NCBI GenBank assembly: GCA_023374045.1
Contig: CM041778.1
Coordinates: 97,528,839 to 97,592,838 of the forward strand
Origin: Limonium bicolor
Taxonomy: Eukaryota > Streptophyta > Magnoliopsida > Caryophyllales > Plumbaginaceae
Length of the DNA: 64,000 nucleotides
Reading direction: 5' to 3'
Shown here: positions 1-26,714 of the stretch, piece after piece
Layout: each line of letters begins with the position of its first letter
How positions within the stretch are numbered: the first letter of the stretch is position 1
Notes under the pieces: model-generated
Databases searched by the model: none
The model's input: the letters and a program-made list of their open reading frames with translations, nothing else
What the model was told of the DNA's origin: nothing
Program-made: the position numbers and the translations under genes

Positions 1-5
1 AAAAG

Positions 6-17
6 TAGTATCAGAGC
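6..17 (+). promoter_or_regulatory. Primer-binding site (initiator Met-tRNA type)
   Basis: TAGTATCAGAGC differs at one base from TGGTATCAGAGC, the usual plant LTR-element site complementary to the 3' end of initiator tRNA-Met. It shows that the 5' LTR ends just left of position 1. The 3' half lies in a perfect 10-bp hairpin: ATCAGAGCGG at 10-19 pairs with CCGCTCTGAT at 24-33 around the loop AGTA. Confidence 0.75.
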
Positions 18-185
18 GGAGTACCGCTCTGATTACAAGAGATAGTAGTTTAAGTACCGTGAGCTTAGGTTATTCACACACCAGTATCAAGGAGATAGTG
101 GTAAATGATTTGAGTTAAGTTTTGGATGAGAAAAGAACAGTACAGTATTTATACCAAGAGCTGACTTTGATTCTGAATTCCTCAG

Positions 186-21242: not shown

Positions 21243-21689
21243 TAGCTGTGATACTTGTACGGGTTCGTGGTCAAACCCTTTTTAAGGGGGGTAGACACCA
21301 CTTGGCTTGCGCATATGTTATGCATTAGGTCTTGTTTTGGTGGTGTGTTTTGTTTGGTATGCTACGTCATACATGTTTGTTTGGATGATTGTATGTTTAA
21401 TACATCTTATGTATGTGCCTTAGTGCACCTGTTTGAGAATATATATATAGTACCGCTGAGTACTTTTGTTGATGAGTTGGATGTGCACCTTGTTTAGTGC
21501 TGTGATATGAATGAGTTTATACCATGAGTTTGGCTACTTGATATATGATGTATGTATAGACTAGGTTTGAACCTAGTGGGAGTTACTCCCTAGCGATGGA
21601 ATGTTTGGTTACTTAGTGGAACTTGATTCCTTAGGTGAACTGTAGAGGATTAAGGACTTCGGGACGAAGCCTTTTTAAGGGGGGTAGAC
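21243..21689 (+). other. Untranslated region with duplicated polypurine tract
   Basis: The stretch between pol and the 3' LTR contains the same 20-bp block twice: CCTTTTTAAGGGGGGTAGAC at 21277-21296 and 21670-21689. The second copy directly abuts the LTR and is the expected plus-strand primer. The first is 393 bp upstream. No gene is seen. Confidence 0.8.
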
Positions 21690-24600
21690 TGAAATACCCC
21701 TAACCTTTAAAACATAATTAAATGATCTATTAATGATCTAAGATGATTAATAAACATCTAAATATTATTGGGGAACAATCTAAAGATCTCAACAAGGCAA
21801 AACATGCCTTAAGATCGGTAAAGCCAAAAATGTGCTTTAAAGCACCATAAAGATTGTGTGACCTCAGATAAGATCCAAAGTGGATTCCTAAGTATTATAA
21901 TGAAGTAAGGAACACAACAAAACAGTTCTCAAAGAAAACTAAGCTCAGAAGCACCTTGCAACACAAAATGTGCACTAAAACACCTTAAAGCACATTTTTG
22001 TGAAATTACCTTCTAAATTGGTTTTAATGGGCTTAAAGGTTATAAATACCTTTAAATATGATATTATATCAAATTATATCATATTAGGAATTTAATTCCA
22101 AAATTTACAAATTTTTACAAATTTAATATTAAAATATTAATAAAACCCTAAAAGGGGGCCCGCTTGAGTCAACATTGTCAAGAGGTCAAAGTTGACCCCT
22201 TGGACCTCATGAAATCAGCAGCTACATGTAAGAAGAGGCTGGATTCACCACTTGCACATACAATAGACAAGTCTCCAACATATGTCCCTAAATTAAGGGT
22301 TACTTTTAGCTTTTGATTACTTAATACACTCACTTTTGGCTCCATTATTTGACTCCTCCAGCTCCAAACCGTGTGAGCCTCTCCTTTCCCCTCCATTAGC
22401 CGATTTCTTGTCTCCTCTTATCTCCTTGGTGAGTCATCTTTCATTAACAAACATTAAACTAATCAAATTTGTCTTTTGCAATCAATTAAGGCCATCTCCA
22501 ACCATTCTCTCTCTCCTATATACATTCCAATCAGTCAATCAGCTCTCTCAGACCCTCTCAACCGAAGTTCTTGAGTTGGGAAGGTAGATCCATCTTCTAA
22601 GGTAATGTTTAAGGCTTGTTTTTGGCTCTTTTGCTTCATCTCTTCACCATCTATGCTTAGATCTCGTGGCTCATCAACTCCTATGGCTTATTCTCAGTGT
22701 TTTAAGGTTAGAAAATCAACCAAATTCGGCTGAAGCAAGTTAAGAGACCAAAGTTTCTCAAAATCTCATTTTAAGGTAAAAACATACCTTAAGCTTCTCT
22801 ACTCTTCATCCGATTTTCTCCCTTTGATTTTTATGAGTTTATACACTCATAATCTTCATATTTACATGTTCAATCAGTTGGTTAGCCATTTGGAGCAAGG
22901 GTGGCCGAGATCCAAAGGAAATACCCTTCTTTAAGGCATTTTTCCAAGGTAAAACCTAATAACAAGGCAGCTTGTTGTTGTCTAGCTATTTCCTATGTCT
23001 ATATGATGAATCTAACACCTTGTGGTGTGTCTAAAACAGGCCGAATCCCTCTTGAACTTTCCTTGCATTTTTAAGGTGATTTTTGCCTTAAATCTTACAT
23101 TAATTATTCCTTATGGTTAAGCTCAAGCTTGGAGTATAACCATATCTTGTTTTGGTGTATTAAACATGTCTAAATGATGTGGTGAATTTTCCTTCAAGTG
23201 GCCGAGTTCATACAAGGGCAAATCAAGGTATAAACACCTTAAACTTATGATTTTTAAGCACATATATAAATTGTGCCGAGAGTGAAGTTATAAATATGGG
23301 TTATATTGACCTAAAAATGGAAAAAAATGACTAAGATAAATTAAGCTAGTCATTTAAGAGATTTAATTAACATAATGGTCAAATTATGACATTATGTGGA
23401 AAAATAATTAAATTAAAGTGAGGCCGTGAGTATATACCATATTTTGAGACATTTATTGTGTAATTTATTTTGCAAGTTCAAGGTTGTAATAAGGCCATGT
23501 CATTAGGCCATTTTAATTTAAGTTTATAAGCTTATTTAGTTAGATTTATGCTTATATAATTAAGTTTGGGGCCAAACCGTAATTATTGGTAAAATACAAA
23601 GCCGTGGGCTTAATTTAGAAGAATTTAGATTTTTTAAATGAATTTAATAAAAATTATAACATTTTATAAAGTTTTGTGTCAAAATTGTAAAAATAGAAAA
23701 GTATAGGTGAAGTTTTGTAATTACCGAAAGGTTTGGGTCCAATTTGGTATTAGAAGTCAAAGTTGACTATATAGGAGACTTTGACCAACTTTGGAGAATT
23801 TTAGAAATTAAAGTACTACCTTATAATAAGATACTTATTAAATTGTAAAAGATTTATAAGACTTGGGGTGGTATTGTGATTTCCAAAAACTTGGGGTACT
23901 AAATGGAGTTTAGTACAACCTTAGGTTATTAGGAATTTTTAGAAATTGATTTGGTTAAATTTGGAGTTTATATGAATTATATAAGTGTAATATAAGATAT
24001 TTCATAATATTGTTACAAATGGGTAACATATGTGGAAAAACCGAGATTTAGAGAAAGTATAAGGTTAGTGATAATGTTGATAACCTTTTGGTATAGTTTG
24101 GTAATTTTTGGAGTTATATATAAGGTTTTATCAAGATATATGTATAATATATAGTTTTGATGATATTAGAAAGCTATATGTCATGAAGAGGGGAATTTGG
24201 TGAATATAGAAAGTTAAGTGGTAAAAAATAATTAGAATAGACCTAGGGGTCTGTTCGGTTATTAAAAAAAATATAACCATAGGTTATAATTATATTAAGG
24301 TTTAAAGATTATAATATAAGGTATATGTTATAAGTGTAACAATGAAATATAATTGAGGTTGATTTGTGATTTATAGAAGTTTAGTGGTTTATATTGAAAG
24401 CCGAAAATATAAGGGGCTATTTGGTATTTTAAAACAATTTACAACTATGTGTTATAATTGTTTTAATGACATAAGTGTCATAATATATATGTTATATAAC
24501 TATTATGTAACATTATATTAATTATGTGGTGGATTTTGTAAATATTTGAGAACATAGGTGCTGTTCGAAAATATTAACATTTTTAAAAGAAATTTATAAT

Positions 24601-26714
24601 ATGGTTTTTAATGTTATAAGAGTTATAACATTTATAATATAAGAGGTATTCATTAAAAAGAATGAATATATATTATAAGACTTGCCATATAACAAATAGT
24701 TCCATAATACATGTATATAAATGAATATATGTTATGGTGCGGAAATATAACATGGTCAATAACCATGTACTTTCATAATTAAAATGACGTAAGATAGAGG
24801 GAAAAAGAATTACAAACATTGGATATGGAATTCTAATGTTAAGAGTGTACATGTGATAATAAGGATTCATATAATTGGAAGTATCGTTTACATAAGAAAT
24901 ATACCACATAGAACTTAAAAAAAAAAGAGAGAAACAAACCTTAGAAAAATAAATACTAAGGTGAGATGAATAGTTCATGACAAAGAATCAAGCATACAAT
25001 ATAGGAACAAACTATATGATGTACAAGAGTACATTAAGTTACATGCGATAACAAAGTTCAAACAATAAGTATATTAATATACGAGACAAGACTATGCATG
25101 TAATATAACACTTTTCCAATCTCGAGTTAAGCCGAAAACCCGACAAACATTGACAGTTTATAACGGGGGATTGACCGGGAGGTATTAGTGACGGTACGGG
25201 GTACCGTAGAGTTATGTTATTATACGGGATGCTAATCAGTAGCATTATGTATTGTTTAGACTGTTAGAGACGACACACGAAGCATAGGATCTTGCTGATT
25301 CATACTCCACCGTAATACATCAGGGTGAACGGTATGTTGTTATGTGTCTCTGATTGTCTCTGAGGGCTTCCTCAGTTCAGACTTCTGTGTGATCTGTGAT
25401 AAGATTGTTTGTCTGAATGTGTTAATTAATATGCGTGAATTGTATATTTATAGCTGCTTATTATTTACTGTTGTTGAGTTAACAGTATTGGTTCGTATAT
25501 ATGGACCTATATATATATAAAACTAACTAGCGGCTATGGTGCTATCTTATATGAAATATAAGGAACGTCAGAAAAACGTTGTAGCACTATGATAATAAGA
25601 TATACATATTATCCGAGACTTTTATACGGAGCATTGGCCTTTCTATACGCCGCTCTCGTATCTAACACTGGATCCCGAGTTTACAGACTCCGGATTGGAC
25701 TAATGACCTTAGTCTGCTGTGTTAGAAAATTTGGTAATGCGATGCGATGGTATAATTAATTAATTAATGGAAGATTGTAAAGCCAAGAGGATGTGGCTCT
25801 TGGTGCGCGCTGTGATCACAAAAACGATACTAGGATGTCCGCGTACGGGTCCGTAAGTATTAAGAAAATTTCCCGTGAGCTAGAATGGCTCGTTGGTCGG
25901 AGACTCTACCGTTGGAGTGGCTACTGCCGTGGGTGACCCGCCATAATTTATGGGTAATTAGAGACATGTCGTTTTTAATGAGACATCGTCACTAGGTATA
26001 ACTGAACAATTAATACAGTTGAGACTTGTACAGTGGCGAACGATATTGGTTTCTATACCATGGACGAGAATTAATACTTGTTTATTATTCTCGTAGCTTC
26101 GCTTTGTTGTTCATTGGTTATACTTGTGGTTATATTATTGTGTGTTGATGGTTGTGATATTGTATGGATATTACTGTTAATTGTTTTACAATTTTAAAAT
26201 TAAAACGGTATTGCATGTAGCGAATCTCATGCTCTCGACCAAATAATTGAGGGGTCTTTGGGGGCATGACGAGGCATGTGATAACATACTCAGCAGGGGC
26301 TGATTCCATACCACAAACCATTTTTATTTCAAGAGATTAGCTGGTGAGTTGACGCGGGTCACGACGGTTGTGATTTTTCTGTTGGTTAAGACTTGGTACG
26401 GTTTGATACTGATGACGTTTTGAACTCGGGTTGTGTAACCGAGGTGTATTTGGTTAGATGCTCATGAGTACGGTCTGTAATAATTGTTGTTGGTTGGATT
26501 TGTTTTAAATTGTTTAAGTTCTACTTTCTATCTCTTGTGGTCACTGCGGGAATACGTTTCGCATGTTGATTATCAGGTAATTCGTTATCACCCGTATGAG
26601 CGAGTGATAACAGTGACACCATAGGAGCGACAATCTGTTATATACCGCTGCGATATATTTATTATGTGCGACACTTATAGGATATTTAGGAGCCGAATTA
26701 GTAGGGGTGTTACA
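21690..26714 (+). repeat. 3' LTR of the AlkB-carrying retrotransposon (5.0 kb)
   Basis: It begins TGAAATACCCC right after the polypurine tract and ends GGGGTGTTACA at 26714. The two ends are imperfect inverse copies. The body is AT-rich and without genes; small frames are shadows. A hairpin TCAGC-AGGG-GCTGA at 26290-26303 lies about 420 bp before the end, as in the other LTRs of this class. Following bases are ACTTG, the expected target duplication, but the left copy is outside the window. Confidence 0.85.

Follow-up and report, generated by a model that had tools for sequence, protein, structure and literature searches.

Whether a plant retrotransposon can carry a nucleic acid demethylase as part of its own genome, and how such an enzyme would be expressed beside Gag and Pol, are the questions raised by a 64,000-nucleotide (nt) stretch of Limonium bicolor DNA (the window; searched as G000:C3:97528839-97592838 in an assembly of 2.92 Gb), which begins with a Ty3/gypsy insertion bearing an AlkB frame between gag and protease. 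Our analyses have identified a multicopy, chromovirus-like Ty3/gypsy element that has AlkB as part of its genome, and it is nearly certain that the AlkB exon is carried by a stable element family. The best explanation of its layout, which we favour with moderate confidence, is a demethylase that would be fused to Gag by splicing and carried in the particle, with the choice of splice site setting the Gag:Pol ratio.

The AlkB-bearing element of the window

The main parts of the insertion, whose 5' long terminal repeat (LTR) ends at base 1 of the window and has its remainder in the sequence to the left (L037), are as follows.

1..26714, + strand: Ty3/gypsy insertion from the last base of the 5' LTR to the end of the 3' LTR, delimited by the LTR pair and ACTTG
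6..17, + strand: primer binding site (PBS); in other copies TGGTATCAGAGC right after the LTR, shown in 4 copies
1678..2417, + strand: AlkB exon of 740 nt, 245 codons from 1680 plus stop, placed by the PF13532 match, the start of homology and the other copies
2719..17974, strand unassigned: nested LTR element, separate from the AlkB element, with LTRs at about 2719-7839 and 12851-17974
17980..21242, + strand: protease, reverse transcriptase (RT), RNase H, integrase and a weak chromodomain, from profile matches and frames
21677..21684, + strand: polypurine tract AAGGGGGG
21690..26714, + strand: 3' LTR TGAAATACCCC...GTGTTACA, from LTR comparison

The assignment to Ty3/gypsy, made in an original prediction from the letters of the window, is borne out by LTRs with TG...CA ends, a PBS, a polypurine tract, a 5-bp target duplication (ACTTG) at both outer ends of the element, and a domain order running on one strand from gag to protease, RT, RNase H and integrase. 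The two LTRs (5060 bp at the 5' end and 5025 bp at the 3' end) share 97.8% identity, with a Kimura two-parameter (K2P) distance of 0.0125 over 5019 aligned sites. The profile matches include Retrotrans_gag (expectation value, E, 4.7e-10), RVP_2 (E 3.8e-19) and RVT_1 (E 6.5e-16); the zinc knuckle match in gag is weak (E 0.0022, below its cut-off), as is the Chromo match behind the integrase (E 0.0043, 17.4 bits vs. a cut-off of 25.1). The PBS TGGTATCAGAGC is presumably of the initiator Met-tRNA type, and the chromovirus-like lineage may be that named Tekay/Del.

The distance of 15 kb between AlkB and protease in the window would suit halves of two unrelated elements that flank a fragment of a host gene. 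This distance is due to the nested LTR element, which has 5.1-kb LTRs (K2P 0.0091) and a target duplication of its own, the CTTCC at 2714-2718 being repeated at 17975-17979. At its empty site the upstream ...VSAS meets the downstream VLFDSGASHSF in frame. Since the host element has matching LTRs with ACTTG on both sides, and since the split is a nested insertion, the gag and pol halves are one element that was split later. At 15 of 20 other loci, where no nested element intervenes, this order continues as far as the 3' LTR, and the reading as two unrelated halves, whose probability we put close to nil, was rejected on these grounds.

The AlkB domain lies on the same strand as its neighbours, downstream of the zinc knuckles of gag and upstream of the protease, and matches PF13532 over its full length (profile 1-194 of 194, E 1.4e-41). 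The open frame starts at 1659 and is closed by the stop codon 2415-2417, in agreement with the interval 1659-2417 first given for AlkB; the exon itself was placed at 1678 because the homology with plant ALKBH1 begins there, at FDIC, right after the AG at 1676-1677. The first ATG in this frame is codon 36. The HxD...H and RxxxxxR motifs are present, and N142/Y144, H153/D155/H213 and R237/R243 (numbered from base 1680), which we take to be the seven ligands of iron and 2-oxoglutarate (2OG), are invariant in all 21 copies compared. Thus, the complete ligand set ascribed to this frame is found in the window and in each of the 20 other copies compared.

By sequence, the nearest solved protein is rice OsALKBH1 (E 3.6e-74). 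A structure model of the element AlkB (predicted local distance difference test score, pLDDT, 79.8; low for residues 1-25 and confident from about residue 30) has OsALKBH1 as its top fold match (PDB 5xeg and 5xoi, ranks 1-2, template modelling scores 0.84/0.90, 49% identity), followed by E. coli AlkB, the first ABH2 being ranked 38th and the first ALKBH5 39th. Identity over the full domain is about 44-56% to most of the named plant ALKBH1C/D proteins among the matches listed. These matches and the modelled fold, together with clade placement (below), support the ALKBH1-like class that had been proposed and indicate a plant ALKBH1C/D-type protein, nearer to ALKBH1 than to ALKBH5 or ALKBH2 by sequence and fold ranking.

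Copies, sequence constraint and relatives

In a protein search of the genome, the best 150 of 50,546 first-look candidates (a figure that is not a copy count) were scored and ranked by AlkB similarity, codons 1-17 lying outside the ranking query. The 150 scored AlkB places, the window included, are 93-100% identical, and 140 have no internal stop. Twenty copies (L009-L028), spread over the ranking, were fetched from the other 149 listed, giving 21 with the window. All 20 carry AlkB, matched over its entire length in 19 and along 737 of 740 nt in L024; gag lies upstream in 20/20, in some shortened, protease downstream in 18/20, and the 3' LTR start is reached in 15/20, including L020, which has a pol deletion. 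Because the same order recurs at 20/20 other loci, the gag-AlkB-protease arrangement is not due to chance. AlkB is thus neither peculiar to the single copy of the window nor foreign to the element, and the independent copies with shared boundaries that the original prediction had looked to are present. The original interpretation is partly supported, in that AlkB belongs to the element and is ALKBH1-like; the capture as cDNA and the use on the element's RNA or DNA that it proposed are putative. Eight preset genome positions, covering 32 kb, contained no internal part of the element and one 126-bp LTR match (74%).

Among the four copies whose ends were read, target duplications are found in L011 (ATATT) and L021 (CACAC, inside a CA repeat). 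The ATG of gag exon 1 was located in 19 copies, and in 4 of these (L011, L019, L023, and L025) the exon is open; in the window copy, the pol frame is broken at about 18.9 kb. A decayed second AlkB of the element type, matching at 46-69% in pieces, is located at 9231-9654 of L024 and is a sign of older AlkB-bearing elements formerly present in this genome.

AlkB evolves under constraint like pol. In 15 of the 21 copies (excluding L012, L013, L016, L020, L024, and L026), the ratio of nonsynonymous to synonymous substitution rates (dN/dS) is 0.134 for AlkB, 0.107 for gag, 0.158 for protease, 0.048 for RT and 0.123 for integrase; the AlkB value over all 21 copies, corrected for the mutation spectrum, is 0.215. 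The AlkB exon is free of insertions and deletions in 18 copies, while its flanking stretches have them (L024 and L026 were left out of this comparison; anchors cut the upstream intron in 17 copies and the post-AlkB stretch in 16).

The three best protein matches to the element AlkB, P0001, P0002 and P0003 (71%, 62%, and 64% identity), share with it a KRMD motif and a short loop ahead of the active site, by which this clade differs from plant ALKBH1C/D and OsALKBH1, where the loop is longer. In the AlkB tree these three and six element rows form one side of a branch against 75 other rows, with a support of 100/100 in a bootstrap that had not fully settled, and the stem of the clade is 1.07 changes per column long. 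The pol match P0229 (80% identity over 306 amino acids, aa) groups with the window pol with an approximate likelihood ratio support (SH-aLRT) of 100, the AlkB-less relatives P0316, P0321 and P0324 being the next branch. This pol tree was built on database polyproteins, and its window-P0229 grouping is the one used; the six element rows do not form one side of a branch in it, L018 and L022 being misread by frame shifts. P0001 and P0229 are each listed from an ENA contig of 26,561 bp and are probably on the same contig; because of this, and because P0229 groups with the window pol, the matches point to the same AlkB-pol layout in a second source.

Other searches for AlkB joined to an element or a virus were negative in their scope: no gag, protease or RT domain was found in any of 89 AlkB matches of 522-1662 aa, three scans of viral contigs contained no relatives, and no named virus occurs among the 120 AlkB matches listed, many of which are unnamed. 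The top scores among the long matches belong to P0121 and P0122 of Smallanthus sonchifolius (786 and 804 aa), which have only 41-42% identity and perhaps contain two tandem AlkB domains.

These observations bear on the possibility that AlkB is a passenger, captured once and amplified, whose seeming conservation comes from young copies selected for AlkB. The ranking of all 150 scored places was by similarity of AlkB, and most copies are not old, since in the four that were tested the main matches of the LTR tails have 93-98% identity (L011 98.1%, L021 95.3%, L018 93.5%, and L015 94.4%, with a second match of 86.5%). A passenger, however, is at odds with an AlkB dN/dS like that of pol, which was not used in choosing the copies, with the ligands retained in 21/21 copies, with the old clade shared with P0001-P0003 on its long stem, and with the decayed older AlkB in L024. 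We consider this possibility quite unlikely.

Splice sites around gag and AlkB

The original prediction made no mention of introns in gag, of splice sites that keep the frame, or of the nested element. The exons and introns between the PBS and the nested element are listed below; introns Ic, Id and If are based on conserved GT-AG ends only.

186..849, + strand: gag exon 1, broken here; intron Ia exactly absent at 849/850
850..980, + strand: gag exon 2; intron Ib exactly absent at 980/981
981..1105, + strand: gag exon 3
1106..1190, + strand: gag intron Ic (GTAAGC...TAATAG), retained in the window, with GT-AG ends
1191..1547, + strand: gag exon 4 with the zinc knuckles, ending in phase 1
1548..1677, + strand: intron Id between gag and AlkB (GTTAGC...TTAG); donor and acceptor in 20/20 other copies
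2418..2536, + strand: segment from the AlkB stop to the distal acceptor CTTCAG; its GTs at 2440 and 2448 may serve as donors
2537..2614, + strand: exon leading to protease, parallel to the linker of AlkB-less relatives
2615..2686, + strand: intron If (GTATGAC...CTCAG), 70-72 nt in 18/20 other copies
2687..2718, + strand: protease exon as far as the nested element, with CTTCC (2714-2718) as its last bases

The donor GTTAGC at the end of gag (after 1547) and the near acceptor TTAG/GA at 1677/1678 are each conserved in 20/20 copies; the far acceptor (CTTCAG/GC, 2536/2537), like intron If, is conserved in 18/20, the other two copies being without that stretch. The near join is predicted to read in frame as ...GEGDFDIC, and the far join as ...GEGYENGKEG, continuing to GTFPVDGVSAS before the protease, in parallel with the uninterrupted linker ...GTFSINYVSAKVLFDSGASHSF of the AlkB-less relative P0316. 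Left unspliced, the donor creates an in-frame stop (GGT TAG, with TAG at 1550-1552). The GTAAGA after the AlkB stop in the window is AATAAGA in 18/18 other copies, which would speak against a cassette exon, but two other GTs after the stop, GTAACC at 2440 and GTATAA at 2448, are conserved in 19/19 rows. AlkB may therefore be either a cassette exon or subject to an alternative acceptor, both of which are possible from the sequence and have equal predicted products, in which AlkB is fused to Gag or skipped.

The absent introns add a further kind of evidence. In the window the junctions read ATTCAG/GAATGC (849/850) and TTGGAA/GAAGAAAAAG (980/981). Intron Ia (GTAAA...AG, 75-79 nt) is present in 19/20 other copies, its donor reading ATAAAA in L011, and is lost exactly in L020. 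Intron Ib (GTAAGA...CACAG, 90-97 nt) is present in 20/20 other copies by spacing, with its ends read in 15 (in the other five the left anchor failed), and intron Ic (72-85 nt) is present in 20/20. Two introns are thus lost at their exact GT-AG borders in the window copy and one in L020. Because the absences fall at these exact borders, it is as if partly spliced RNA had been reverse-transcribed to give these copies. The loss of intron Ia is common to both.

We infer from these sites that a plant ALKBH1-type demethylase would have been taken into the element as a spliced exon between gag and protease, and that three products would follow. On unspliced RNA, translation would end at the donor and give Gag; splicing of the donor to the near acceptor would give a Gag-AlkB fusion that stops before pol; and splicing to the far acceptor would skip AlkB and give Gag-Pro-Pol. 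Through this fusion the demethylase would enter the particle and, lying next to the packaged RNA, could remove methyl groups such as 1-methyladenosine (m1A) or 3-methylcytidine (m3C), which block reverse transcription, N6-methyladenosine (m6A), or N6-methyladenine (6mA) on newly made DNA; the Gag:Pol ratio, too, would be fixed by which splice is chosen. That AlkB is joined to Gag by splicing is, from the conserved sites, fairly likely. The fuller proposal, in which alternative splicing fuses the captured demethylase to Gag and sets Gag:Pol in an element with at least five introns, some copies of which derive from partly spliced RNA, we hold with slightly more doubt than belief, and the suggestion that, within the particle, AlkB has the nucleic acid of the element itself as its substrate is more tentative still.

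AlkB could instead be used as a separate protein, made from unspliced RNA by initiation at the internal ATG of codon 36 or at a non-AUG start, with no fusion to Gag. In the orchid family described below AlkB is in a separate open reading frame (ORF), ORF2 (PMC9289625). Since the structure model is confident from about residue 30 onwards, and since constraint over codons 1-35 is lower than in the rest, initiation at codon 36 might still yield a folded protein. There is, however, no in-frame ATG upstream of codon 36, and changes before this codon are in excess at third positions (divergence.005/.016/.049 at positions 1/2/3 of codons 1-35, counted over the window and L009-L028); in addition, the donor and acceptor are conserved in 20/20 copies with matching phases. 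We regard a separate protein as unlikely.

A further possibility is that the exon serves chiefly as a splice or translation switch yielding Gag without Pol, with enzyme activity secondary. The two splice joins and the stop after AlkB do separate Gag from Pol, and Gag-favouring splicing is reported for BARE1 (PMC3735527) and EVADE (PMC12786077). A switch would have no need of an active site, yet the seven ligand positions are invariant in 21/21 copies, and this possibility appears improbable, more so than a passenger.

Several observations weigh against a constrained, splice-fused Gag-AlkB. Neither AlkB junction was seen spliced, the junctions being read from DNA; no copy among the window and the 20 others has lost intron Id or the whole of 1548-2536; and the donor GTTAGC is weak relative to the consensus GTAAGT. 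Gag is broken in the window, with an in-frame stop near 553-561 and exon 1 not open from its ATG, and AlkB contains a stop in 2/21 copies and in 10 of the best 150 listed. Constraint is weaker in codons 1-35, since their nonsynonymous to synonymous ratio of variant types is 0.50 of the neutral expectation (8 and 7 types, respectively), compared with 0.28 in the rest, and ranking by AlkB similarity favours intact copies. L015 and L018, two of the four copies examined, have no recognisable target duplication. Lastly, the shared contig of P0001 and P0229 is deduced from the equal contig size of 26,561 bp.

Known systems and significance

Apart from the element, the window (- strand, 44466-45591) contains frames of a host gene, which we take to resemble proteasome subunit RPT5, and no Rfam match or tRNA was found within its 64 kb. 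The LTRs of the nested element are rich in a 12-bp tandem repeat (GCCCATTTCAAG-like), and its internal part has 50-bp and 189-bp arrays. Because this internal part has no similarity to the 120 polyproteins compared, the nested element is perhaps non-autonomous.

The Limonium element is chromovirus-like, has the PBS TGGTATCAGAGC (presumably Met type), and carries an ALKBH1C/D-like domain as an exon between gag and protease, with no ATG before codon 36 and with introns around gag. In contrast, Gypsy_Pa_2799 of the orchid Phalaenopsis belongs to Ogre/Tat, has a tRNA-Arg PBS, and carries an ALKBH5-like m6A RNA demethylase, active in vitro, at the end of a separate 565-aa ORF2 beside a single gag-pol ORF (PMC9289625). 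Both are plant Ty3/gypsy elements present in many copies, with a 2OG-Fe(II) AlkB and conserved ligands, the roles of such motif positions being also given for the orchid element (PMC9289625). The orchid study screened 121 genomes and reported the domain in no further LTR elements. Apart from a review citing that study, our literature search, outside of which lay most subscription papers and bioRxiv, found no second paper on an AlkB-bearing LTR element. The original prediction that no standard gypsy lineage with AlkB was known is thus superseded. AlkB also occurs in plant RNA viruses of the Alphaflexiviridae, Betaflexiviridae and Closteroviridae, where it is thought to keep RNA intact (PMC9289625); like the present element these are mobile genomes with AlkB, but they are RNA viruses.

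Plant LTR elements are reported to be generally without introns, with Ogre and EVADE as exceptions (PMC12786077). Partial or alternative splicing tunes Gag vs. Pol in Ogre, EVADE and BARE1 (PMC6317226, PMC12786077, PMC3735527) as is proposed here, and the present element differs from them in its several gag introns, in a skipped stretch that holds a foreign enzyme, and in copies with exact intron loss. No chromovirus with several gag introns was found by titles and the starts of abstracts, in a search lying mostly outside subscription papers.

Hence, the general idea of an LTR element with a demethylase is already known, and novelty lies in the lineage of the element, in the class of its enzyme, in the arrangement as an exon and in a gag with many introns. 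In the Limonium element, a plant LTR retrotransposon appears to have captured a nucleic acid demethylase independently, for the second time, the lineage and the AlkB class differing from those in orchids. If the intron assignments are true, the presence of five or more GT-AG introns within gag and downstream of it would make the element more intron-rich than the plant LTR elements of the compared literature. In copies whose introns are precisely absent, DNA preserves a record of splicing, from which the RNA processing of a silenced plant element can be read, and a census of such copies could show in what order the introns are removed. If demethylases have been captured repeatedly, this would suggest that retrotransposons are truly hindered by methyl marks or methyl damage on their RNA or DNA, and the layout described here represents a testable proposal for how such an enzyme may be placed beside the packaged RNA.

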